Assembly: GCA_016790075.1 (NCBI GenBank)
Contig: JAEUPP010000082.1
Coordinates: forward strand, 1-57,237
Direction of reading: 5' to 3'
Source of the DNA: Rhodanobacteraceae bacterium
GTDB taxonomy: Bacteria > Pseudomonadota > Gammaproteobacteria > Xanthomonadales > Rhodanobacteraceae
Length of the DNA stretch: 57,237 nt
The translations under genes and the position numbers were made by a program. Shown here piece by piece: positions 12,742 through 27,051 of this stretch (its first letter is position 1; every line of letters starts with the position of its first letter). Below the pieces are notes generated by a model, which saw only the letters and a list, made by a program, of their open reading frames with translations, did no database searches and had not been told where the DNA came from.

Positions 12742-13482
12742 TTACGCGTCAAGCCAAACCAGTGTTTCACGTATGCGCTCGCGATAGTTGCGCGCCGAAA
12801 ACAGTTCATCGCCGTTTTTCAGCACCAGCCTGTAGCGGCCTGATGACTGAGCCTCGACCTGGGCGATCACGGCGACACGGACAATATGCGAACGATGGAC
12901 GCGAACGAATAGCCGCGGGTCCAACTGGCATTCCATCCACGAAATGGACCGGCGAATCACATAGCAGTTGGCACCGGCGCGGATTTCAAGATAGTTCGAC
13001 TGCGCCAGTACACGGTCTATCGTGTCTACCTCGACAAGACGTGTGCGGCGTCCAATCGGAAACGGCATACGCTGAGGAAACGCTGCGGGGTTGGTAACCG
13101 TCCGCGGACTGGCCGACGCTGCCAGGTCCCGCCGCACGCGCTCTACCGACGCCAACAGGCGCTCCTGGGAAACCGGCTTGATCAGATAGTCGGTTGCATC
13201 GATGTCGAACGCCCTGGTGGCGTACTCAGAGTACGCCGTGACGAATACGATGCGGGGCAGCGGGAGCGCAAGCTCGCTGACCAGGGAAAATCCGTCTTTC
13301 TCCGGCATCTCGATGTCGAGAAAGATCACGTCAACAGCAGTGATACGCAATCCTCGCGCCAGCTCCGTCGCATTTTCACAGACAAGGACGACGCGGATCG
13401 ACGGATCAGAAGACAACAGCCGGGCAATCCGCATACGTGCCAGGGGCTCGTCGTCGGCAATGGCAACCCTGAGCACACTCAT
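12742..13482 (-). CDS. LytTR-family response regulator
   Basis: The 246-residue protein has an N-terminal receiver domain with the phosphoacceptor Asp near residue 55 (VIFLDIEMPEKDG) and the conserved Lys in TDYLIKPVSQE. The C-terminal LytTR DNA-binding domain (about 145-246) includes VRVHRSHIVRV. It is the LytR/AlgR/YehT type, a cytoplasmic transcription factor. Its ATG overlaps the stop of the upstream histidine kinase gene (ATGA, 13479-13482), so the two are translationally coupled and form one system. Targets cannot be read from the sequence. Confidence 0.94.
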   Translation of the reverse strand: MSVLRVAIADDEPLARMRIARLLSSDPSIRVVLVCENATELARGLRITAVDVIFLDIEMPEKDGFSLVSELALPLPRIVFVTAYSEYATRAFDIDATDYLIKPVSQERLLASVERVRRDLAASASPRTVTNPAAFPQRMPFPIGRRTRLVEVDTIDRVLAQSNYLEIRAGANCYVIRRSISWMECQLDPRLFVRVHRSHIVRVAVIAQVEAQSSGRYRLVLKNGDELFSARNYRERIRETLVWLDA

Positions 13483-14600
13483 GCGCGCGACCTTGCGGGC
13501 AACGATTTCGTGGCCAACGCAGACGAGGCCGTAGCAGGCACCGGTGTGGTGTTGTACGGAAGCTCAAGCCGTACTCGGGCCCCGCCGCATTCCGTGCGTG
13601 TCAACTCGAATGAATAGTCGTTGCCGTACAGGCACTGCAGTCTGCTCTGGGTGTTGCGCATGCCTACGCCGTTACCGCTGGTTGGTTCGCCAGACGCTTC
13701 ACCGTCGTTCTCGATGAGCAGGATCAGGCGTTGCGAATCACGCTGTGCCTGAATGTGAATGCTGCCGCCCTCTGCCCGGCGCGAAATGGAATGGACGATC
13801 GCGTTCTCGACGATGGGCTGCAGGATCAGCACGGGCACCCGGGCGTTCAGACTTTCGGGCTCTATCGAGCACGATACACGCAGGCGGCGGCCCAGCCTGA
13901 CCTTCTGGATATCGAGATAGTGGTTGAGAACTTCCATCTCCTCGCGCAGGGAGAACTCCTGCTCAGCGGACGAATTCAAGCTGCAGCGGAGCAATGCCGA
14001 CAGGCCGACCAGCATCCGGTCCGCCCCATCGGCATCGTGATGCACAAGTTCTGCAATCGAGTTCAGCGTATTGAACAGGAAGTGCGGATTGAGCTGCGCT
14101 GTCAAGGCATCGAGCCGGGCCGCCGTGAGTTTCGCCTCCATGTCGATGAGCTGCGCCTCACGCTGTCGCGAATGTCTGGCATACAGAATCGCATGAGCGA
14201 CACCGACGACGAGCCAGCAATAAAGAAAATTGGCGCGGATGCTGTCAACGAGCACCCGGGAGAACGCAGGCGGCTGGTCGTACCACTCAAAATAACCGTT
14301 GGTTAAGTACATGTAAGCCGCTTTCGCGAAAATCACGACAAACACGCCGCTGACAAGCAGCGGCATGCTGCGGAGGAATGTGTCGGTACGAAGCGGCCGC
14401 AGCTCAACCAGCCAGATCAGAAGCAGACTGAAAGGCACCCAGGTTATCCAGCCGCTGAAACTGTAGAAAAGCGCCTCGGTATAGCGCATAGGCTTGCCGG
14501 CCGCCGCGCTCCAGTTCATGTAGCTCTCTGCATAAAAGAGCGAGTAGGCCGAAGCGAGCAGCAGCAGATTGAGCCATAACGGCAACTTGATTTTTCGCAT
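13479..14600 (-). CDS. LytS/YehU-family sensor histidine kinase
   Basis: The 373-residue protein has about four hydrophobic transmembrane segments in the first 150 residues. They are followed by the His_kinase (PF06580) motif QLNPHFLFNTLNSIAELV with the phosphoaccepting His near 172. An HATPase domain carries the N box ILQPIVENAIVHSI and a G box (GNGVGMRNTQSRL). The protein has no large periplasmic sensor domain, so the signal is probably perceived in or near the membrane, as in AlgZ/FimS. It is the first gene of a two-gene operon with the LytTR regulator. Confidence 0.94.
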   Translation of the reverse strand: MRKIKLPLWLNLLLLASAYSLFYAESYMNWSAAAGKPMRYTEALFYSFSGWITWVPFSLLLIWLVELRPLRTDTFLRSMPLLVSGVFVVIFAKAAYMYLTNGYFEWYDQPPAFSRVLVDSIRANFLYCWLVVGVAHAILYARHSRQREAQLIDMEAKLTAARLDALTAQLNPHFLFNTLNSIAELVHHDADGADRMLVGLSALLRCSLNSSAEQEFSLREEMEVLNHYLDIQKVRLGRRLRVSCSIEPESLNARVPVLILQPIVENAIVHSISRRAEGGSIHIQAQRDSQRLILLIENDGEASGEPTSGNGVGMRNTQSRLQCLYGNDYSFELTRTECGGARVRLELPYNTTPVPATASSALATKSLPARSRA

Positions 14601-14972: not shown

Positions 14973-17804
14973 GTGAAAGAGATGATTTGGAGGTGGCGCC
15001 GGCTGGGATTTCTCGCCAGCCTTGTCTGGCTCCCTGCTGCCGCCTCGACGGCGACAGTATCCGGCAGCGAAGACCGCGGTGAGTCATGGCAGATCGAACA
15101 GCGCCAGCTCTGGTTCGAAAACACGCGCGGATTGAAAGCCTATCCGGAAGCGGCGCGCGAACGCGCAGCAGCGATCGAAACCCAGCGCGCGCAACGGCGC
15201 GGCAGTGATGCCATGCAGATGGCCAACGGCGAGAGCTGGGAATCCATCGGTCCGTCCTCGATGCTCATGGCAGGTTGGGACATGGCCAATGTGTCTGGCC
15301 GCATCAACGCGGTGACGCCGGTTCCGGAAAACGAGAATATCGTGTACGTCGGCAGCGCTTCAGGTGGCGTGTGGAAGACCACCGATGGCGGCGCGAACTG
15401 GACACCGGTGTTCGAGCAGACCGGCACCCAGCCCATTGGTGCCGTGACTCTGGACCCCAGCAACAGCAACACGGTCTGGGTTGGAGCCGGCGACAAGAAC
15501 GGAGGCGCCTGCGCCGGCTATTTCGGGCAGGGCGTGTTTCTCAGCGAGGACGCAGGCGCTACCTGGTCCGCGCGCAACGGCAGCGGCGCAACGGCCATGC
15601 CGCTGTCAGTCGTCAACGCCATTGCGGTCCAGCCTACCGACGGTAACGTGATTCTCGCCGGTGGTTCCGGCAACTGCAGCGCAGCCGGAGCGCTCAGCGG
15701 CGCCGGCGTATTCCGCTCGGCTGACCGTGGTCTGACCTGGACACGGGTGCTGAGCAACAACGTCGAAGACATCGTTTTCGTGCCGGGCAGCAATACCGTC
15801 TACGCCGGGCTGGTTGGCACCGGCGTGTTCAAATCGACTGACGGTGGCACGACCTGGACCAACATCAGCGGCATCATGCTGGTTACCGGTTCACGCATGC
15901 GTCTGGCCATGGCGCCCAGCGACAGCAATACCCTGTACGCACTGATCGGTCAGCGGTTGTACCGCACTACCGATGCCGGCGGCAGCTGGACCCAGGTCAA
16001 CGCCGCATCCTGTGAAGGGCAATGCAGCTACAACCTCGCCCTGGCCGTCAGCCCGACCGACCCCTCGACAGTACTGCTGGGGGCCATCCGCCATCACCGC
16101 TCGACCAATGGCGGCACGTCATTCACGGCGCTGACCAGTCAATGGGGCACGATGCAGAGCGTGCACCAGGACACGCACGTCGTGCGTTATTCGGCAACCA
16201 ATCCGCAGCGTTTCTGGGTTGGCACCGATGGCGGGCTATGGCGCACGGACAATGGCGGGCTGTCCTACGCGAACTTGAACACCCAACTCAGCCTTACGCA
16301 GTTTTATGACATTGCCGTGCATCCGGACGATGCCGACATCGTGTTCGGCGGCTCACAGGACAACAGCTCGATGGGCCGCCGTACCAGTCTGCAGTGGGGC
16401 ATGACCTTCGGTAGCGGCGACGGTTTCATGAACGCCGTGGACCCGACGAATCCCGCCCGGGTATTCCAGACCGGCTATCCCAGCGGCGGACTGCCGGAAA
16501 TCGTGCGCTCCAACGTGTACGGGAGCCCGGACAGTTTCGAAGTCATCCCCACGACCGGACTTACACCGTCGAATTCGTTTCCCTGGGTCACACCCATGGC
16601 AGTGGCGGACAACCAGCTGTTCATCGCCTCCAATACGGTCTACCGCACCGCCACCAACGGCACCAGCTGGACGGCCGTGTCGCCCAACCTCGGCAGTGCC
16701 GCCGCAGTAATCACGCCGCTGCGCATCGGCGTGCTAATGCCGACGTACGTCGGTACTTCGGCGGGCGCCATCTATTTCAGCCCCGATGCGTCGGTCCCGT
16801 CTCCAACCTTCAGCAACGTCACCGGCAACTATCCGGGCGGCCGCGTTTCCGACGCGGCCATGGATCCGGCCAATGCCCAGCGTGTGTTCGTGACACGTTC
16901 GGGGTTTGGCGCATCGCGTCTGTATCGCTCGACCACAGGCGGCACCACCTGGACGCCGGTCGGCACAGGCTTGCCCAATGTTCCGGCCAACAGCGTGGTG
17001 CTGGATCCGCTCAATACGAATCGCGTATTTGTCGGCACGGACGTGGGCGTCTATGAAAGTCTCGACGGCGGCGACAATTTCGCGCCATACGCGGCGGGCA
17101 TGCCGCTGGGGGCAGTCGTCACCGACCTGGAAATCGACGACATGCCGCATGTGCTGACCGCCGGCACCTATGGCCGCGGAGCGTGGCGCTCGGTGCTCAG
17201 CTCCACTGCCGGCAACCTGCGGCCGACTGCCGATATCGCTGCAGCAGTGAATGACCTCACGGTCGCTTTCACCAGCACCTCAACGGACCGTGACGGTACG
17301 CTTGCCAGCTATCTCTGGGATTTCGGTGATGGCAGCGTCACCTCGACTCTGGCCGCGCCCAGCCACACCTACGTCAGTTACGGCAACAAGACCGTCACGT
17401 TGACCGTGACGGATGATGACGGCGCGACGGCCACGTACTCCCGGATAGTGAACGTGCGTGCGCCGCCGGCGCCGCTGCAGAATGGCGTCACCATGCCTGG
17501 CCTGAGTGCTGGCCTGAACGAGGAACTGCGCTTCACCCTCGCCGTCCCCGCGGGAGCAACCAACCTGAGTTTTGCAACGACCGGCGCTGCCGGCGCGTAC
17601 GCGCAACTCACCGTTGCCCTCAATGGCCGCGTGGTTTGCGAAGGCGCCAGCTACACCGCCAACGAATCGTGCACAGTGCCGAATCCGCCGCCAGCGGGCA
17701 CCTATCTCGTGCTGCTGTTTGCATACACACCGCTGAGCAATCAGACCATGGTCGGTCGCTACACCGCGCCGGATCTGATCTTCACCAGCGGTTTCCAGCC
17801 CTAA
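14973..17804 (+). CDS. Secreted BNR/sortilin-like propeller protein with PKD and PPC domains
   Basis: The GTG start at 14973 follows AAGGAG (14961-14966) and gives 943 residues. A signal peptide (WLPAAAS) is followed by a long beta-propeller region (about 85-740) with many BNR/VPS10-type repeats such as GGVWKTTDGGANWT and GVFKSTDGGTTWT. A PKD domain (about 750-830, SYLWDFGDGS) and a PPC-like beta-sandwich (about 835-930, PAGTYLVLLFAY) follow. The last residues, DLIFTSGFQP, belong to the tail shared with three other exported proteins here. The family is extracellular and often a carbohydrate- or protein-binding or glycosidase-like propeller; no catalytic residues can be assigned. It is probably monocistronic. 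Confidence 0.88.
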   Translation: MKEMIWRWRRLGFLASLVWLPAAASTATVSGSEDRGESWQIEQRQLWFENTRGLKAYPEAARERAAAIETQRAQRRGSDAMQMANGESWESIGPSSMLMAGWDMANVSGRINAVTPVPENENIVYVGSASGGVWKTTDGGANWTPVFEQTGTQPIGAVTLDPSNSNTVWVGAGDKNGGACAGYFGQGVFLSEDAGATWSARNGSGATAMPLSVVNAIAVQPTDGNVILAGGSGNCSAAGALSGAGVFRSADRGLTWTRVLSNNVEDIVFVPGSNTVYAGLVGTGVFKSTDGGTTWTNISGIMLVTGSRMRLAMAPSDSNTLYALIGQRLYRTTDAGGSWTQVNAASCEGQCSYNLALAVSPTDPSTVLLGAIRHHRSTNGGTSFTALTSQWGTMQSVHQDTHVVRYSATNPQRFWVGTDGGLWRTDNGGLSYANLNTQLSLTQFYDIAVHPDDADIVFGGSQDNSSMGRRTSLQWGMTFGSGDGFMNAVDPTNPARVFQTGYPSGGLPEIVRSNVYGSPDSFEVIPTTGLTPSNSFPWVTPMAVADNQLFIASNTVYRTATNGTSWTAVSPNLGSAAAVITPLRIGVLMPTYVGTSAGAIYFSPDASVPSPTFSNVTGNYPGGRVSDAAMDPANAQRVFVTRSGFGASRLYRSTTGGTTWTPVGTGLPNVPANSVVLDPLNTNRVFVGTDVGVYESLDGGDNFAPYAAGMPLGAVVTDLEIDDMPHVLTAGTYGRGAWRSVLSSTAGNLRPTADIAAAVNDLTVAFTSTSTDRDGTLASYLWDFGDGSVTSTLAAPSHTYVSYGNKTVTLTVTDDDGATATYSRIVNVRAPPAPLQNGVTMPGLSAGLNEELRFTLAVPAGATNLSFATTGAAGAYAQLTVALNGRVVCEGASYTANESCTVPNPPPAGTYLVLLFAYTPLSNQTMVGRYTAPDLIFTSGFQP

Positions 17805-17877: not shown

Positions 17878-19041
17878 CTTCGTAAGACTCACGCAATGCG
17901 GCAGCTCCGGGCGAACCGTATCTTTTCCGGACTCAGATCACGTTTCGCATGCTGGACAAAAACGCATTTCACACCAAATGCCATCCCTTGAAGTTGGCGG
18001 GCTGGCGGCGGCGTTGGCAGCAGATCAATTGAAACCCGTGAAACCTCCGGAAAGTGCGACGAAGAACGGCTCAACTGCCCAGATGCGCGAGACTTCGCGA
18101 CACCTAATATGGACGCCAGAAGGCAAAACGAGTGCGTGCAGAAAAGTGACGTCATACCTGCAAGAACTTTTTTGTTTTCGCCAGATAACCCGCAAGAAAT
18201 TATGTTTTTTGAACGAGTCATTGCTTCCTGCAATCAATTGTTCGCTAGCGCGCCGCGGCACGTGTCACGAATTGGCATCGGGAAATATTATTTGACTGCC
18301 AAAAGGTGCGGTGATCCGCCCCAACCGGATAGCCATGGAAGAGTGCCAGGTACCGACGGGACCGTGCATACGCTCTACGACTAAGCCAGCCACGGGCCCA
18401 GTGACTACCACGTGATCGATGTTTGTCCCGAGCCGGCGTTCCTCTCGCGTAACCGGCCGTCTGCCGAGCGCGCTCGTAGTGCGAAGCAACCACACCGCGG
18501 CGGAACAGCCTTACCGCAGTCACTTGTACCGTCGCCTGCCGGGCAGCGTGCTCCGATACGGGGCGCTGCCATGGCTGGCGATCCCAGCATGAACGAGGAA
18601 CCCGTACTCGCAGCCGCGCTCAACTTATCTCCGGGCGGGGACTCTTGCCAGCATGACGCATTGAAGACTTTTCCAGTCGGCCTGGGGGAATCGTGCCGCT
18701 GGCGCGTCAATATTTGTCGAGCTGGACGCAAATGCCATATGAAACAGCGAAGCGAGTTACCGGCACTGTGCGTTCTGGCTGACTCAGAAAAACGGAGTTC
18801 CGCATCAGGGAGTGATGATCAAGTGATCTTTTCAGAATACATAACGGTTCGTGGCACTCGCGATGCTGTCGAAGCAGAGGATGCCCAAGCAAATAGTCTG
18901 GCAGTGATCACGCTGCACAGCATCACCACCCGTAGTAGCCACAATGACACGTGCCGCAGCCGCGCGGGCTACTCAGGCGATGCGGCCATCGCGGCCGAAG
19001 TCCTCGTAGCAGGAGCACGCCAGGTTCACACCGGACACCGA
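17878..19041. other. Non-coding stretch, about 1.16 kb
   Basis: Open frames here have no recognisable domain, no good ribosome binding sites and no consistent codon bias. The part around 18150-18300 is clearly AT-richer than its surroundings and may contain a promoter. I cannot identify a gene. Confidence 0.5.
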
Positions 19042-20661
19042 TTGCAGCCGCATCCGTTGCTGCAGCCCCTAACGCGCGCTGCCGTATTCGTGGCCATGTT
19101 GGCGCTTGCCATGGCCAGCCCCAACGCTGCCGCAACGGCCGCCTTTTCCCTTGGCGGTCTTGACGGCACGACAGGCGTTCGTCTGGATGGCGCAACCGAT
19201 GACCAATCCGGCATTTCCGTCAGCACGGCCGGTGATGTCAATGGTGATGGAGTCGACGACCTCATTGTCGGAGCCGACATGGCCAACGGTCAGGCAGGTG
19301 ATCGCACGGGTGCCGCCTATGTTGTGTACGGCAAACGCCCCCCCTATTCCGCCACGTTCGCACTGCACACGCTTGACGGCACTAACGGGTTCCGCCTCGA
19401 AGGCGGAGCGTCTGGCGATCAGATCGGACGCAGCGTAGCGGCGGCGGGTGACTTCAACGCTGATGGCATCGACGACCTGGTGGTTGGCACCACCCGGGGC
19501 ACCAGCGCCAGCGGCCGGATTTTTGTCGTGTTCGGCCGCAGCACGGCATTTCCCGCCACAATTTCCGTTGCCAGCCTTGATGGCAGCAACGGCGTAGTGC
19601 TCGACTGCGGACCAGTTCTTTCCGGCTCGGCGGTAGCTGTGGTCGATGGCGCCGGGGATGTCAACGGCGACGGCGTGGACGACATCGTCATCGGCGCCTC
19701 GGGCGCATCTTCCGCGGCACCGGGTTCGGGTTTGGCAATCGTCGTATTTGGCCGGCGCTCACCGTTTCCGCCAACACTGTCCATGGCTGCACTGGACGGC
19801 ACGGACGGGTTCCGCCTCAGCGGCGTTCAGGCGGAAATGATAGGCACGTCGGCCAGCGGTGCCGGCGATATCAACGCCGATGGTTTTGACGACATCGCGA
19901 TCGGCGCGGCCCAACGGTATGTTAGCGGGGTCGGCCCCAGCACTGGCTCGGCCTATGTGGTTTTTGGCAAGAGCACGCCTTACGCCGCCACGACATTGAC
20001 CTCCAGCCTTGATGGCCACAGCGGCTTCCGCATAGACGGTGAAAGTGCTTTCAGCGTTCTGGGCAAGAAAGTCAGTGGCGCGGGTGACATTAACGGCGAC
20101 GGTTTCGATGATCTCGTCATCGGCGCACCGGGCTTCAACGACGGAGCGCAGCAGGCGGCAGGAGCGGCATACGTGATAACCGGCAGGTCAGCCGAATTTT
20201 CTGCACAAATGAACGTTTCCGGCCTTGACGGCGCAAACGGCCTGCAATTGCGCAGTACCGCGTCAAATGGATTTCTCGCAAGCTCGGTAAGCAGTGCCGG
20301 TGACGTCAACGATGACGGCTTCGATGATCTGCTGATCGGCAGCCATCTGGCCAATCCCAATGGCCAACCTCACGCCGGCAGCAGCTATGTCGTGTTCGGC
20401 AAAGGCACGGCGTTCGATGCCGATATGGATCTTGAACAACTCGGCACCCCCGGTGGACTGCGCCTGGATGGCACGGCAGCCAATGAAGTCTCCGGCTCAA
20501 GCATCGGCGCAGCCGGCGACGTCAACGCCGATGGCATCGGCGACCTGATTGTCGGCGCACCGGGCGCTGGCCCCGGCGGTACGTTCGCACCGCGGGGCAG
20601 CAGCTATGTCGTATTCGGCCAGTCTGATCGGCTGATGCGAGATGGTTTTGAGCGACGCTGA
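19042..20661 (+). CDS. Secreted FG-GAP (integrin-alpha-like) propeller protein
   Basis: Seven FG-GAP repeats, each with a calcium-loop-like motif, are visible: AGDVNGDGVDDLIVGA, AGDFNADGIDDLVVGT, AGDVNGDGVDDIVIGA, AGDINADGFDDIAIGA, AGDINGDGFDDLVIGA, AGDVNDDGFDDLLIGS and AGDVNADGIGDLIVGA. Seven repeats should close one complete beta-propeller. The hydrophobic stretch around FVAMLALAMASPNAAATA looks like a signal peptide. The start is uncertain: TTG at 19042 includes a basic N-region, ATG at 19096 gives a shorter leader, and the frame stays open back to 18412 without credible coding sequence. The C-terminus RLMRDGFERR is a variant of the tail found in other secreted proteins here. No enzymatic function can be assigned. 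Confidence 0.8.
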   Translation: MQPHPLLQPLTRAAVFVAMLALAMASPNAAATAAFSLGGLDGTTGVRLDGATDDQSGISVSTAGDVNGDGVDDLIVGADMANGQAGDRTGAAYVVYGKRPPYSATFALHTLDGTNGFRLEGGASGDQIGRSVAAAGDFNADGIDDLVVGTTRGTSASGRIFVVFGRSTAFPATISVASLDGSNGVVLDCGPVLSGSAVAVVDGAGDVNGDGVDDIVIGASGASSAAPGSGLAIVVFGRRSPFPPTLSMAALDGTDGFRLSGVQAEMIGTSASGAGDINADGFDDIAIGAAQRYVSGVGPSTGSAYVVFGKSTPYAATTLTSSLDGHSGFRIDGESAFSVLGKKVSGAGDINGDGFDDLVIGAPGFNDGAQQAAGAAYVITGRSAEFSAQMNVSGLDGANGLQLRSTASNGFLASSVSSAGDVNDDGFDDLLIGSHLANPNGQPHAGSSYVVFGKGTAFDADMDLEQLGTPGGLRLDGTAANEVSGSSIGAAGDVNADGIGDLIVGAPGAGPGGTFAPRGSSYVVFGQSDRLMRDGFERR

Positions 20662-20855: not shown

Positions 20856-23800
20856 TCACCCCAGCAGATCAAAATCCCCGTCCAGCACCCGGTCCAACCG
20901 CCCGCTGCGCCAGCCCCGCACGGCGTCGCGCACCAGTGGAGTGGGCTGCTCCTGATACCGGCGGCACAGGCGGGATTCAGCCTCAGACTCAGCACTGAAA
21001 CCACTGACACCGTCGGGTGTCACGCGAACACGCACGCGCTGACGCTCCGCCGGATTGGCGTCACCGCGTTCGAGTACATGCAGGCCGCGCTCATCGCGCA
21101 GGATCTGCCAGGCGCCAAATCCAGCGATCAGCAACCGCCGACTGCCCTGCTCGCAGTCCTGCTCGATGGTACGCACACGCATGCCACGAGTATCGGCCCA
21201 TTCGAGATACATCTGCGCGAGGCGGTCAGCCCAGGTGCGCGCTGCTGTGGTGATTCGATCCGCACTCACGAGTTCGAGCTGCGCGTCCTCCGGCTCCTCG
21301 GCGAGCACAGCGCTGATCGCCAGGTCGAGCAGATGCAGGCGCAGAGCAATATGACGCACCACGTCGAGCACGCCACGGCCGCCACCGGTCAGGCGCGCAA
21401 GCAGCGAACGTGCGCCACGCACGCCGTTCTCAATGCGGTCCATGCGTTCGAGGCGGTCGAGCACGCGCTGGCGGTCGGTGCGGCTCCAGAAATCGCGCGA
21501 CTGCATTGCAATCGCAGCCTGGTCCTTGAACGCCAGCCATGCCGGATCTTCCAGGCGCGCTTCGCTGGCGGCGAGCTCGGCCTGCAAGGTCGCCCGGGCC
21601 GTCGCGTCGGCGGACGGATCGAGCGCGAGAGCACGCAGATCGGCGCGCTCCGTTGCCGCCACTGCGGCGGCGGCGCTGGCATCGGGATCGACAAAGCGCA
21701 CCTGCAGCGCATCATGTGCACCCGTCACGAACAGGAACTGCCCGCCGCTGGGCGCACGGTTTTCCACAATGGTGCGTGACAGCGGGGCGAGCAGGTACTG
21801 ATCGATCGCACGGCGCAGCGGTCGGGCGCCCAGGTCCGGCGTGAATCCGCGTTCGAGCAGAAAGTCGACCGCTGATGGCTCCCATTCCACCGCCCAGTCA
21901 CGCGCGCGGAAACCGCGTCTGGCCAGAACGAGTTCGAGTTCCTTGTGCAGTATGTCGCGCATGACCGCACGCGACAGCGGCTGGAAGATCACGATGCGAT
22001 CCAGCCGGTTGAGAAATTCACGGCGAAAGGTCGCAAATAACGCGCGCTCGGCGTCGCCGCGCGCCGATGCGTCGGCCGCCGCCACAAAGGCCGGGCCAGT
22101 GCGACGCGTGACCGTGGAACCGACATTGCTGGTCAGGATGATCAGGCTGTGACGGAAATCCGCCGTATTGCCCTGGCGGTCGGTAAGGCGTCCGTCGTCG
22201 AACAGTTGCAGGAACAGATCCCAGATACGTGCATGCGACTTTTCAAACTCGTCCAGCAGCACGACGGCGAACGGCGTCTGCCGTATGCGCGCGGTCAGCG
22301 AGGCGGCGCGCTCACCGCTGCCGTCATCGATGAGGCGCCAGTAGGCGTCTTCCGACTGGTACTCGCTCATGTCAAAGCGCAGCAGTTTTTCGCGCGAGCC
22401 GAACAGATACTCCGCCAGCGCTTTGGCGAGTTCGGTCTTGCCGGTGCCGGTAGGGCCTGCAAACAGGAATACGCCCAGCGGCCGCTGCGGATCAGTGAGC
22501 CCGGCCTTGAGCATGCTGATGCGATCGACCAGGGCATCGACGGCTTCATCCTGACCGATCACACGCCGGGTAAAGAAGGCGCGCACTTCGGTCAGATCCA
22601 GGCGAGCACCGCCGTCGAGGATGTCCAGCGGCAGCCCGGACTGCAGCGCTAGGGTGGCCAGTATCTGCTCGCGCGTCAGCGGCAGCGTGGGTGGGTCAGC
22701 TTGCAGTGCAGTACGCAGCGTTTCCTGCAGCAGGCGCAGACTGCGCCCTGGCTCGGCGCGATCCGGAAACTGCTGCGCGGCGAGGCTCATGGCTTCGGCT
22801 ATCAGCTCGGCTGAAGCAACGGGACGCTGCTCGCGTTGCTGCGCTTGCAAGGCCCAGGCTTGTGCAAGTTCACGTGTCGCCGCGGCATCGAGCACGTCCA
22901 CGTCGAAGGCGGCGATGAGATGACGGATACGCGGTCGCTGGGTAAGCACCCGGCTCCAAGCATCACGGGAGCTCTCGCCGATCAGCTGGATGTCGTGTTT
23001 CTCCAGATAGGGCAGCAGCAGATCGAGTATTCCGGTCGGATCGCTGGTCGTGCGTCCTTTTTCCAATAGCTGGTGCGCTTCGGGCACGTACCACAGCGTG
23101 CGCGGTGTGGACAGCGCGCGCACGAGCCGCGCGATACGGCCTTCGAGTTCGCCGATGAACTTCTGGCCCGCGAGCACCTGTGCCGGGGACGCTTCGATGA
23201 TACGCCAGCCTTGCGCGGCAAGTTCGCGCAGGCATTGCCGGATCAGCGTGCTCTTGCCACTGCCTTCCGCACCGACGAGCACCGTGCTGGTGCGCGGCTC
23301 GCGACCCAGCAGGGCAAGCACGCGCTGGCGTGCCTCCTCGTCCGTCGCTGCAAGTATTTCGTCGCCCCCTTCATCGGGGCCGATCAGACGGCCGATCTGC
23401 AACAAGGTATCGAGATCGTCCTGCTCACGCAGGTGCTGGGCGATCTGCGCGGCGAAAACTTCGCCGCGCACATGACCACAGTTGCGCAACCAGCCCAGCA
23501 GCGCGCGCAGCCGATCGCGGTCGGCCGCCGCGATATCGGCACCTAGTGCAGCGCTGCCGGGCAGCGCGTCGAAATAGCGCTGCAGACCTGCGCGCGCGAC
23601 CGGATGATCGATCCACCATTCGCTCATGCGCAGCAGCACGCCTTCCAGCGACTGGGGATGCGGATGTGCGGCCAGATAGCCGAATGCATAGTGCAAGGTG
23701 AAATAACCCATGCGATCCAGGGTGCGCACGATGTCGAGTGCGACCACGTCGCCCGCCCGATGCAGCGCCACGAAGGCAGCACTGCTCAGCGGTACACTAC

Positions 23801-24161
23801 GCGACGCAGCGGCTTCAACGCGTTCACGCGCGCTGAACGCGGCACCTGCCAGCAGGTCGACCGCGGCGCTGAATTCGGCCATGGCGGCCAGTTCGTCCGG
23901 ATGCTCGAAACTGTCCAATCGTTCCTGACAAGGCCGCAGCAGCGCATGCAGTTGATCGCGTGGTGACGCCGGTGCGCGGGCGACTTGCGCCTCACCACCA
24001 CTGGCCCGCTCAGATCCGGCGGAAGCCTCGGTCATCGCCTCCTCCGGCGCCGCAGCATCCTGCGGCACGGCCGGCGTTTCGCTCGCTTTGCGCGAGGGCG
24101 TTCTAAGCCACCACGCCGTCATGAACCCCAACACGATGCCGATGAACAGACCGACGCCCAT
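20856..24161 (-). CDS. Membrane-anchored Clp-type AAA+ ATPase with release-factor-like (PCRF) C-terminus
   Basis: The 1101-residue protein starts with one transmembrane helix (about 1-20). A middle region of unknown fold leads to AAA module 1 (about 290-450), with Walker A GAEGSGKST and pore-loop-like KFIGELEGR but Walker B changed to TLWYVPEAH. AAA module 2 (about 555-760) has Walker A GPTGTGKTE and Walker B LLDEFEKSH, followed by a ClpB D2-small domain; the usual GYVG pore loop is missing. From about 885 to 1045 the sequence matches the PCRF domain of RF1/RF2: DFWSRTDRQRVLDRLERM, then ARTWADRLAQMYLEWADTRG and GLHVLERG. The GGQ and SPF/PxT motifs are absent, so it cannot act as a release factor itself. 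A role in remodelling ribosome-associated complexes at the membrane is inference. It appears monocistronic. Confidence 0.85.
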   Translation of the reverse strand: MGVGLFIGIVLGFMTAWWLRTPSRKASETPAVPQDAAAPEEAMTEASAGSERASGGEAQVARAPASPRDQLHALLRPCQERLDSFEHPDELAAMAEFSAAVDLLAGAAFSARERVEAAASRSVPLSSAAFVALHRAGDVVALDIVRTLDRMGYFTLHYAFGYLAAHPHPQSLEGVLLRMSEWWIDHPVARAGLQRYFDALPGSAALGADIAAADRDRLRALLGWLRNCGHVRGEVFAAQIAQHLREQDDLDTLLQIGRLIGPDEGGDEILAATDEEARQRVLALLGREPRTSTVLVGAEGSGKSTLIRQCLRELAAQGWRIIEASPAQVLAGQKFIGELEGRIARLVRALSTPRTLWYVPEAHQLLEKGRTTSDPTGILDLLLPYLEKHDIQLIGESSRDAWSRVLTQRPRIRHLIAAFDVDVLDAAATRELAQAWALQAQQREQRPVASAELIAEAMSLAAQQFPDRAEPGRSLRLLQETLRTALQADPPTLPLTREQILATLALQSGLPLDILDGGARLDLTEVRAFFTRRVIGQDEAVDALVDRISMLKAGLTDPQRPLGVFLFAGPTGTGKTELAKALAEYLFGSREKLLRFDMSEYQSEDAYWRLIDDGSGERAASLTARIRQTPFAVVLLDEFEKSHARIWDLFLQLFDDGRLTDRQGNTADFRHSLIILTSNVGSTVTRRTGPAFVAAADASARGDAERALFATFRREFLNRLDRIVIFQPLSRAVMRDILHKELELVLARRGFRARDWAVEWEPSAVDFLLERGFTPDLGARPLRRAIDQYLLAPLSRTIVENRAPSGGQFLFVTGAHDALQVRFVDPDASAAAAVAATERADLRALALDPSADATARATLQAELAASEARLEDPAWLAFKDQAAIAMQSRDFWSRTDRQRVLDRLERMDRIENGVRGARSLLARLTGGGRGVLDVVRHIALRLHLLDLAISAVLAEEPEDAQLELVSADRITTAARTWADRLAQMYLEWADTRGMRVRTIEQDCEQGSRRLLIAGFGAWQILRDERGLHVLERGDANPAERQRVRVRVTPDGVSGFSAESEAESRLCRRYQEQPTPLVRDAVRGWRSGRLDRVLDGDFDLLG

Positions 24162-24918: not shown

Positions 24919-27051
24919 ATGAACACTGTTAGAAACAATTGCAAAAAATACCTGTGGCGGGCCATGCTGCCCGCCTGCCTGCTGTTTGCGCTGGGTGGCG
25001 GCGTCGGCTACGCGGCTGAAGATGCGCCGGGCGCACGTGCCAGCAGCATGTCGTTGCAAGTCGACACTTATCGCGGCAAGGCTGACGCCTTCCGTGCCGT
25101 TGACCTTTTTTCCGGCACATCGTCGCGTTCGGCTAGCAGCGACGCCATTACTCGGCTCGCGGTCAGCAGCGGCACCTTGCTGGATCTGGACAAGAATGCG
25201 GTCGCGAGCTTGCAGCGCAGCCGCCCCAGTTCGCTGACCCTGCGCCTGCCGACACGCGAACGTGGCCAGGTCGAACTTGAGCTGTTCGAGAACGATATCT
25301 TTGCGCCGGATTTCAAGATCTCGGCCAGCGGCGGCGAAGACACCAGCCGCATCAACCGTGGCCTGCACTATCGCGGCATCGTCAAGGGTGATCCGTCTTC
25401 ATTCGCCGCAGTCAGCGTATTCAACGGTGAAGTGATAGGTACGTTTTCCACGCTGACCGACGGCAACTGGGTCATAGGCAAGCTGGAAGGTGACAACCCG
25501 ACGAACCGCCATATCGTCTACGCCGAGTCGGCGATTCTCGACAAGACGGGCGCGCCGGGCTGCGCGATGGGCACCAATGGTGCACGCGAGAACTTTGCGA
25601 AGTACTGGGAGGATTCATCGGCGAGCAAGAGCGCCGCGCAACCGGAAATGTCGCCGGCCGCCAGTGAGCGCGGTGCGGGCACCGATGCACTGCAGACGGT
25701 CAAGTGCGCCACGGAATGGATGGAAGCCGAGTACGACATCTTCCAGAACCGCGGCAGTCTGCAGGCGGCGACGGACTATGTCACGGCAGTGTTCAACAAC
25801 TCATCGACCCTGTACGCCAATGACGGTATTTCGCTGAAATTGCAACAGGTTCACGTCTGGACCACAGCCGATCCGTACAACGGCTCCAATTCCAGCGCCA
25901 ACCTGTCAGCATTCCAGCAGAATCGCGCCAGCAGCTTCAGCGGCACTATCGCCCAGCTGCTCACATTCCGTTCGCTGGGCGGGGGTGTTGCCGCCGGTTT
26001 CAGCGGCATCTGCAATTCGTCGCGCTCGGCCAGCATGTGTACCAGCGGTGTCAGCGCGGCATTCAATACGGTGCCGACGTATTCCTGGACAGTCAGTGTA
26101 GTCACCCACGAAGCAGGCCATCTGCTCGGCTCGCGCCATACCCATGCCTGCGTCTGGAATGGCAACAATACGGCGATCGACGGCTGTTCGGGCCAGACCG
26201 AAGGCGGCTGTGCACTGCCAGGCAATCCTTCCGGTGGCGGCACGATCATGAGCTACTGCCACCTGACCAATGTAGGCATCAACTTCAATCGTGGCTTTGG
26301 TTCGCAACCAGCGGCCGTAATCCGTAACCGTGTCGAGGGTGGCGGCTGCCTTGCCAACTGTGACGGCGGAGGCGGTGGCGGCGGTGGAACCCTGACGCGC
26401 GGCACGCCGCTCACCAATCAGTCGGCGGCTACCGGTGCGGCACTGGCTTACACCATGGCGGTACCATCGGGCGCAACCAACCTGACCTTTACCACCTCCG
26501 GTGGTACTGGTGACGCCGATCTGTTTGTGCGTTTTGGCAGCGCGCCTACCGATACGGTCTATGACTGCAAGTCAGACGGCTCGACCAATGCCGAAACCTG
26601 CACGATTGCCGCACCCAGCGCAGGGACGTATCACGTACGCCTCAAAGCTTATGCGGCGTACTCGGGTGTCAGCATCGTCGGCAACTACACCACCGGCGGC
26701 GGCGGCGGCGCGCAAACCTACAGCAACACGACGGACTATGCGATTGGCGACAACACAACAGTCGATAGCCCGATTACGGTGTCCGGTCGCACTGGCAATG
26801 CGCCGACGAACGCATCGGTAACGGTCGCCATCGTGCACACCTACCAGGGTGACCTGAAGGTCGACCTCGTTGCACCGGACGGATCGCTCTACAACATCCA
26901 CAACCGCACCGGTGCCGATGCCGACAATGTCAACAAGACGGTCACGCTTGATCTCTCGAGCGAGCCGCTGAACGGAACCTGGAAACTTCGCGTCAACGAC
27001 AACGCAGTCAACGACACAGGCAGGATCGACAGCTGGTCGATCACGTTCTGA
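24919..27051 (+). CDS. Secreted reprolysin-type zinc metalloprotease with PPC and P domains
   Basis: The ATG at 24919 follows GGAGGGAG (24902-24909) and gives 710 residues. A signal peptide (ending near GYAAE) and a propeptide of roughly 220 residues precede the catalytic domain. The zinc site HEAGHLLGSRH lies at residues 397-407 and the Met-turn (TIMSYCH) near 443, the metzincin/M12B pattern. A glycine linker leads to a PPC domain (about 495-590, PSAGTYHVRLKAYAAYSG) and then a proprotein-convertase P/Homo B domain (about 600-710, GTWKLRVNDNAVNDTGRID). This domain order is common in secreted proteases of Lysobacterales. It is predicted to be an exported, self-activated protease and lacks the LFxxGF tail. 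Confidence 0.94.
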   Translation: MNTVRNNCKKYLWRAMLPACLLFALGGGVGYAAEDAPGARASSMSLQVDTYRGKADAFRAVDLFSGTSSRSASSDAITRLAVSSGTLLDLDKNAVASLQRSRPSSLTLRLPTRERGQVELELFENDIFAPDFKISASGGEDTSRINRGLHYRGIVKGDPSSFAAVSVFNGEVIGTFSTLTDGNWVIGKLEGDNPTNRHIVYAESAILDKTGAPGCAMGTNGARENFAKYWEDSSASKSAAQPEMSPAASERGAGTDALQTVKCATEWMEAEYDIFQNRGSLQAATDYVTAVFNNSSTLYANDGISLKLQQVHVWTTADPYNGSNSSANLSAFQQNRASSFSGTIAQLLTFRSLGGGVAAGFSGICNSSRSASMCTSGVSAAFNTVPTYSWTVSVVTHEAGHLLGSRHTHACVWNGNNTAIDGCSGQTEGGCALPGNPSGGGTIMSYCHLTNVGINFNRGFGSQPAAVIRNRVEGGGCLANCDGGGGGGGGTLTRGTPLTNQSAATGAALAYTMAVPSGATNLTFTTSGGTGDADLFVRFGSAPTDTVYDCKSDGSTNAETCTIAAPSAGTYHVRLKAYAAYSGVSIVGNYTTGGGGGAQTYSNTTDYAIGDNTTVDSPITVSGRTGNAPTNASVTVAIVHTYQGDLKVDLVAPDGSLYNIHNRTGADADNVNKTVTLDLSSEPLNGTWKLRVNDNAVNDTGRIDSWSITF

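Follow-up and report, generated by a model that had tools for sequence, protein, structure and literature searches.

Bacterial release factors carry their catalytic domain as an insertion within the recognition domain, as set out in the relevant part of PMC6514570, so that loss of the catalytic domain can leave a fold. Among described derivatives, the RtcB-linked release factor PrfH (RFH) lacks domain 1 and keeps GGQ (PMC1586002 and PMC6514570, in the sections treating it), and in eukaryotes Vms1/ANKZF1, a structurally unrelated release-factor type of the aeRF1 clade, binds the AAA+ protein Cdc48 through a VIM motif and not by fusion (PMC6514570, same part). The gene considered here lies on the reverse strand at 20856..24161 of a 57,237-nucleotide stretch of DNA from a Rhodanobacteraceae bacterium (contig JAEUPP010000082.1), which is referred to as a whole as the window. 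The original prediction, made from the letters of the window, described a membrane-anchored Clp AAA+ protein fused to a release-factor PCRF region and knew of no characterised protein of this design. The frame is open over the predicted 1101 residues, and profile searches together with 36 relatives bear the fusion out. The Clp AAA+ protein fused to an RF2-derived module is thus a real, conserved and undescribed fusion, the last in the sense that, among the matches listed in the open-licence PMC full-text literature, neither an AAA+ protein bearing a release-factor module nor a release-factor descendant with domain 3 cleanly missing was described; the section on bacterial release-factor diversity in PMC6514570 does not mention such a fusion. 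The conserved design is apparently undescribed.

The PCRF family (PF03462) matched the whole protein with 29.9 bits against a cut-off of 24 (residues 897-1032) and the C-terminal 266 residues alone with 33.6 bits (4.5e-8), as had been expected of a Pfam search of this region. The NCBIfam prfB model matched at 945-1032 with 2.5e-7, far under its curated cut-off of 370 bits. A whole-genome search and a contig scan (29 loci) yielded 39 proteins including that of the window, and removal of three identical copies left 36 distinct sequences. PCRF matched all 36 C-termini at E<=1 (best 4.2e-10), a count that uses this threshold, the curated cut-off being reported for the window protein alone. A profile of the 36 C-termini gave 38 distinct matches to PDB sequences up to E=10, all of them RF2 or RF1 (best 2.1e-12). 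In the genome of the window, PF03462 had three matches, namely two frames of release-factor length and the fusion protein. Taken together, these searches place the PCRF match far above chance. RF2 from the same genome scored slightly higher than RF1 from that genome (28.3 vs 23.5 bits), and E. coli RF2 outscored E. coli RF1 with the family C-terminus profile; an RF2-like ancestor is therefore favoured, though not proven. The claim of a PCRF domain in two parts was right as to homology and understated its extent, since the module extends over RF2 domain 1 and the codon-recognition core, and probably over the C-terminal tail as well. The ratio of nonsynonymous to synonymous substitution rates (dN/dS) was 0.19-0.32 for the module in seven pairs and, in a similar range, 0.16-0.25 for the remainder of the protein, and these values indicate that the gene is under purifying selection.

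The conserved positions of the module are those of a release factor. Invariant in 36/36 sequences are the Trp in QDW, three residues in MYxxW (Met, Tyr and Trp) and both Gly and His in GxH. All 35 sequences that have the tail also keep Asp in KD and three positions in GxFD (G, F and the final D), the F standing in place of the Leu in RF2 GDLD. The tail is rich in Arg, with 8.9 per 39 residues (35 sequences) vs 3.1 in 18 RF2. The GGQ catalytic domain 3 is absent from the family and the SPF/PxT motif is not kept in the 36 sequences, so that alignment and residue counts agree with the predicted absence of GGQ and stop-codon-reading motifs. The architecture, homology to RF2 and RF1, loss of catalytic and codon-reading residues, and conservation are all evident at the level of sequence. 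The GxH histidine was considered as the codon-stacking His and rejected, because the stacking residue is RF1 His197 according to the relevant part of PMC3974865, and that column holds His in 0/36.

A second collinear stretch, which the original prediction did not include, relates the last 39 family residues to the RF2 C-terminal tail. It is weak on its own in HMMER, and MAFFT likewise puts the RDxxRGWRxGRxxxVxxGxFD stretch at the RF2 tail. The 39-column tail profile alone aligned to RF2 columns 318-340 with a score of 17.3; 45 of 300 column-permuted tails landed in the RF2 tail region and none of these reached 17.3 (best 16.3). Homology of the tail to RF2 domain 4 is probable. With the PCRF match and the collinear tail match, the module resembles an RF2 reduced to domains 1, 2 and 4, from which catalytic domain 3 has been excised, if the tail homology is right.

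The motor motifs of the two ATPase modules, D1 and D2, were scored in the 36 sequences by alignment with ClpB and ClpA from the genome of the window; we take the usual Clp motif names to apply. D1 has an intact Walker A and a pore-loop aromatic in 36/36 (Tyr 32, Phe 4), a Walker-B Asp in 0/36 and a Walker-B Glu in 11/36. In D2, Walker A, Walker-B DE, the sensor 1 TSN, the Arg-finger Arg and GAR are present throughout; the GYVG pore loop is found in none, and all 36 have a shortened loop without any aromatic. The first position of the ClpP-docking IGF/IGL tripeptide is never Ile (Pro 31, Leu 2, Ala, Met and Val 1 each). Since D2 keeps its motifs and D1 has lost the Walker-B Asp, D2 is predicted to be the motor and D1 probably a nucleotide-binding scaffold. 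Classical threading or handoff to ClpP seems unlikely because GYVG and the docking Ile are missing in all 36. The two predicted Clp-like modules are therefore both present, although D1 is degenerate and the GYVG pore loop is missing from D2. The original prediction proposed a disassembly or "unfolding machine" targeted to the ribosome or to RF-bound complexes; as to unfolding, this needs a caveat because the usual D2 threading loop and the D1 Walker-B Asp are missing throughout. Among the best 25 of 53 families, Pfam assigned AAA_2 (2.6e-39) and ClpB_D2-small (1.1e-14) and found no Clp N-domain in the 1101-residue protein. ClpA is not known to have an M-domain. NCBIfam ClpA matched residues 276-808 as a single stretch and ClpB matched in two, with a low score (292 vs a cut-off of 1232); the single ClpA stretch and the split, low ClpB match indirectly suggest that a ClpB-type coiled-coil M-domain is absent.

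The predicted membrane anchor is supported by hydropathy, the mean Kyte-Doolittle value near the start being at least 1.6 in 30 of the 34 sequences having an N-terminus (L009 and L059, cut there, are omitted). The exceptions are L008, L038, L041 and L062, and a longer frame of L041 has an anchor at its start. The charge after the anchor suggests an N-out orientation with the protein body in the cytoplasm. The family profile of the N-domain that follows gave no significant PDB or Pfam match; its best weak PDB match was an artificial alphaRep repeat protein (E 0.14). The features are collected in Table 1.

Table 1. Features of the fusion gene and its product, in window coordinates
Feature	Residues	Position	Strand	Basis
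Entire gene, encoding a Clp/Hsp100-type AAA+ protein that has a membrane anchor and an RF2-derived module at its C-terminus	1101 aa	20856..24161	-	Open reading frame, Pfam/NCBIfam, 36 distinct family sequences
N-terminal membrane anchor, then linker	2-19	24105..24158	-	Hydropathy
N-domain, no recognised family	62-266	23364..23978	-	No significant PDB/Pfam match with family profile
D1 ATPase module	about 270-480	22722..23354	-	Motif alignment
D2 ATPase core (AAA_2)	560-722	21996..22484	-	Pfam and motif alignment
ClpB_D2-small domain with sensor 2 GAR	729-808	21738..21977	-	Pfam and motif alignment
RF2-derived C-terminal module, 266 aa	836-1101	20859..21656	-	Profile searches and alignment
PCRF match inside C-terminal module	862-1032	21066..21578	-	Pfam
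Arg-rich C-terminal tail, resembles RF2 C-terminal tail (domain 4)	1063-1101	20859..20975	-	HMMER, MAFFT

What, then, would a release-factor module do on such a motor? Clp proteins form hexamers, and the family is expected on this general knowledge to be a hexameric, single-pass inner-membrane Hsp100/Clp-type AAA+ protein in which D2 would hydrolyse ATP and D1 would probably bind it only. The RF2-derived part of each subunit would lie in the cytoplasm and combine RF domain 1 with the domain 2/4 core, domain 3 and the stop-codon-reading tips being absent. We tentatively favour the reading that the module, which keeps those RF2 parts that contact the L11 stalk and those lining the A site, targets the motor to the ribosome; this is plausible, if somewhat less likely than not. 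The module would still dock at or close to the ribosomal A site, on the side of the L11 stalk and the decoding centre, or alternatively bind a partner able to recognise release factors at that site, and would do so without stop-codon reading or peptide release. As a tether with no catalytic activity it would bring ribosomes, or some factor stuck on them, to the membrane-bound motor, and D2-driven movement other than classical threading would remodel the bound target. In the ArfA-bound state described in part of PMC5378476, RF2 occupies the A site while its SPF is not bound and its domain 1 rests on the L11 stalk, which implies that A-site placement does not need the SPF contacts. A more specific proposal, rather unlikely as a whole, is a ribosome quality-control device, in which a membrane Hsp100-like ring would present up to six catalytically dead RF2 decoys; where ribosomes close to the membrane stall or stand idle, the decoys would move into the A site, and the D2-only motor would clear the jam by pulling out or rearranging the jammed material.

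Several observations weigh against ribosome targeting. The stop-codon contacts were examined as residue identity across the 36 sequences at the seven RF1 contacts named in the relevant part of PMC3974865, and these are mostly or wholly lost: the RF1 residue is retained at Gly120 in 2/36, Glu123 in 3/36, Arg186 in 5/36, Thr198 in 8/36, and in 0/36 at Gln185 (Val in all 18 RF2), Thr190 and His197. According to the same part of that paper, alanine at four stop-codon sites in RF1 moved the dissociation constant for the ribosome from <3 nM to 0.06-1.3 µM. Since the lost contacts are so costly in RF1, ribosome affinity could be gone. For the tail, the match to RF2 is of moderate strength, since 11/300 column-permuted profiles scored as high anywhere on RF2. 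The reciprocal RF2-tail hidden Markov model (HMM) gave 1.6 bits at most and in part negative scores, and its top match fell in the family tail in 19/36. With the family-tail HMM, individual RF2s did not outscore the best shuffles: with L083 left out as partly masked, 15 of 18 scored 0.1 to 5.0 bits and three below zero, the best match falling within the RF2 tail in 17/18 and elsewhere in L076, against 8.1 for the best of 3600 shuffles and 7.1 for the best unrelated neighbourhood reading frame. In the genomic context, the gene that most often adjoins the fusion gene is mutS, which lies upstream of it in the same orientation, and no translation gene was recognised as a conserved neighbour in the loci examined. 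The loss of the codon-contact residues and the Arg-rich conserved tail would also suit a module exapted as an RNA- or protein-binding adaptor off the ribosome, with the motor acting on a ribonucleoprotein or other partner at the membrane. A precedent is plastid PrfB3, which descends from RF2, has neither SPF nor GGQ and, according to the relevant part of PMC5897788, binds the petB 3' untranslated region; it shows that such an RF2 can turn into an RNA-stability factor. However, no RNA partner or linked RNA gene was recognised in the neighbourhoods examined and the core residues of the RF-like fold are kept in 36/36, so we regard such an adaptor as possible, on the doubtful side.

The position of the module directly after the D2 small domain, in a machine made non-canonical by its altered D1 and D2 loop, raises the possibility that it is structural only, capping or oligomerising the D2 side of the ring or regulating the ATPase with no ligand inherited from RF2. 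This appears unlikely, as the conserved positions are RF2 invariants and the Arg-rich tail looks like a binding surface. It is highly improbable that the protein is a conventional Clp ATPase of the protease or disaggregase kind, threading its substrate into ClpP, for example, and bearing an incidental tail. Its best NCBIfam matches are indeed ClpB and ClpA, the latter over the stretch given above, but both score about a quarter of their curated cut-offs, and the missing GYVG loop, the loop without aromatics and the replacement of the docking Ile, mostly by Pro, all count against this reading.

A search for the same architecture across the order Lysobacterales, as had been proposed, found the fusion in 10/200 genomes, a patchy distribution; in G052 the match begins only at residue 286. 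In the genus, 6/8 genomes have a match, that of the window included; the match in G939 covers the last 274 residues only and that in G942 stops at residue 1054. G937 and G941, of the same genus and both 99% complete, gave no match at 1e-100, which means that these two can do without the gene or have lost it recently. Lysobacterales names are borne by 26 of the 29 named loci (the placement of Tahibacter, Luteimonas and Lysobacter in this order was checked), one is from an unplaced gammaproteobacterium, and two, L057 and L059, are contigs of Rubrivivax metagenome-assembled genomes, possibly by real transfer or by mis-binning. With up to six candidates scored per genome, the C-terminus profile matched in 294 of 369 class genomes. 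The fused form was confined to the genome of the window and one of its genus (E about 1e-105); the other genomes gave 3e-14 at best, most of these matches lie in open frames about as long as a release factor, and all 18 such loci fetched encode a GGQ-bearing protein. With the whole protein as query and up to two candidates scored per genome, 13 of 398 phylum genomes had a match at 1e-68, which extends into the C-terminal module in G000, G012 and G031 only. Spread on plasmids was considered and rejected, as a tblastn search against plasmids gave no match at 1e-60.

Two further Lysobacterales loci, L087 (G011:C8:12000-28500) and L088 (G021:C19:8000-22000), hold three tandem Clp-like AAA+ genes, in L087 of about 1030, 1057 and 802 residues and placed after a DUF3686 "DNA repair" ATPase and before a GDSL lipase. 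With the first tandem protein as query, the family of the window was among the best order matches. In hhalign, the first tandem C-terminus gave P 0.0024 to 0.042 with two-sequence profiles and 0.17 as a single sequence against the 36-row alignment. The second gave P 0.031 to 0.18, and in the permutation control run on this second C-terminus 5/100 permutations reached its score. HMM scores of the tandem C-termini lie inside the shuffled range. These two C-termini may be more decayed RF-like modules, which is suggestive only. The DUF3686 ATPase was also considered as a partner of the fusion; it occurs in 3/10 carriers (G000, G012, G038) and 23/190 others among the 200 order genomes, and is thus not a consistent partner. 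A role as a defence system was rejected, as the PADLOC matches cover AAA regions only.

A MutS P-loop motif precedes the gene by about 0.8 to 1.6 kb in 19/24 loci with flanks examined, and L044 adds a cut mutS fragment. Pfam MutS I-V was confirmed in the one copy tested (L054). L115 (G031) also has mutS upstream, with a long open reading frame between it and the fusion gene, and the motif was not found at L036-L038 (Tahibacter-type relatives) or L057. The fusion gene of the window has an M12 metalloprotease and an FG-GAP protein as neighbours. The former, at 24919-27051 (+), is a divergent M12/reprolysin-like enzyme with PPC and P-domain, and a homologue (cluster C11) lies within the loci of the near relatives L036-L038. 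Beyond the 3' end of the gene are the FG-GAP-repeat protein at 18412-20661 (+) and a Sortilin-Vps10/PKD-repeat protein at 14973-17804 (+), both perhaps secreted. A response regulator of the LytTR type is paired with a histidine kinase at 12742-14600 (-), some 6 kb away from the fusion gene. A comparable regulator/kinase pair stands on the other side of the L057 copy, probably by chance.

The family shares with RF2 (prfB) domain 1 and, in QDW..MYxxW and GxH, the core of domain 2; the C-terminal tail is probably shared too, with KD kept at its Asp and GxFD where RF2 has GDLD. Unlike RF2, it has no GGQ domain, has lost SPF, GGxE, His197 and other codon contacts, and has its module fused to a membrane-anchored AAA+ protein. 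With the two-ring Hsp100 proteins ClpB and ClpA it shares the D1-D2-D2small order and intact D2 Walker A/B, sensors and Arg finger, whereas the D1 Walker-B Asp and D2 GYVG loop are lost and a membrane anchor and RF2-like C-terminus are present. PrfH is likewise a variant bacterial release-factor derivative outside RF1/RF2, and its domain content is the reverse of that of the fusion family. Plastid PrfB3 is also an RF2 descendant that lost SPF and GGQ and took up a new job, and is not described as an ATPase fusion in the cited part of PMC5897788. The design suggests that the RF2 recognition half is separable from peptide release and attachable to a motor. Vms1/ANKZF1 with Cdc48 is an analogue in working, a release-factor-type protein linked to an AAA+ motor in ribosome quality control (PMC6514570, in the part cited above), and the fusion family offers a testable bacterial counterpart to this eukaryotic pairing.

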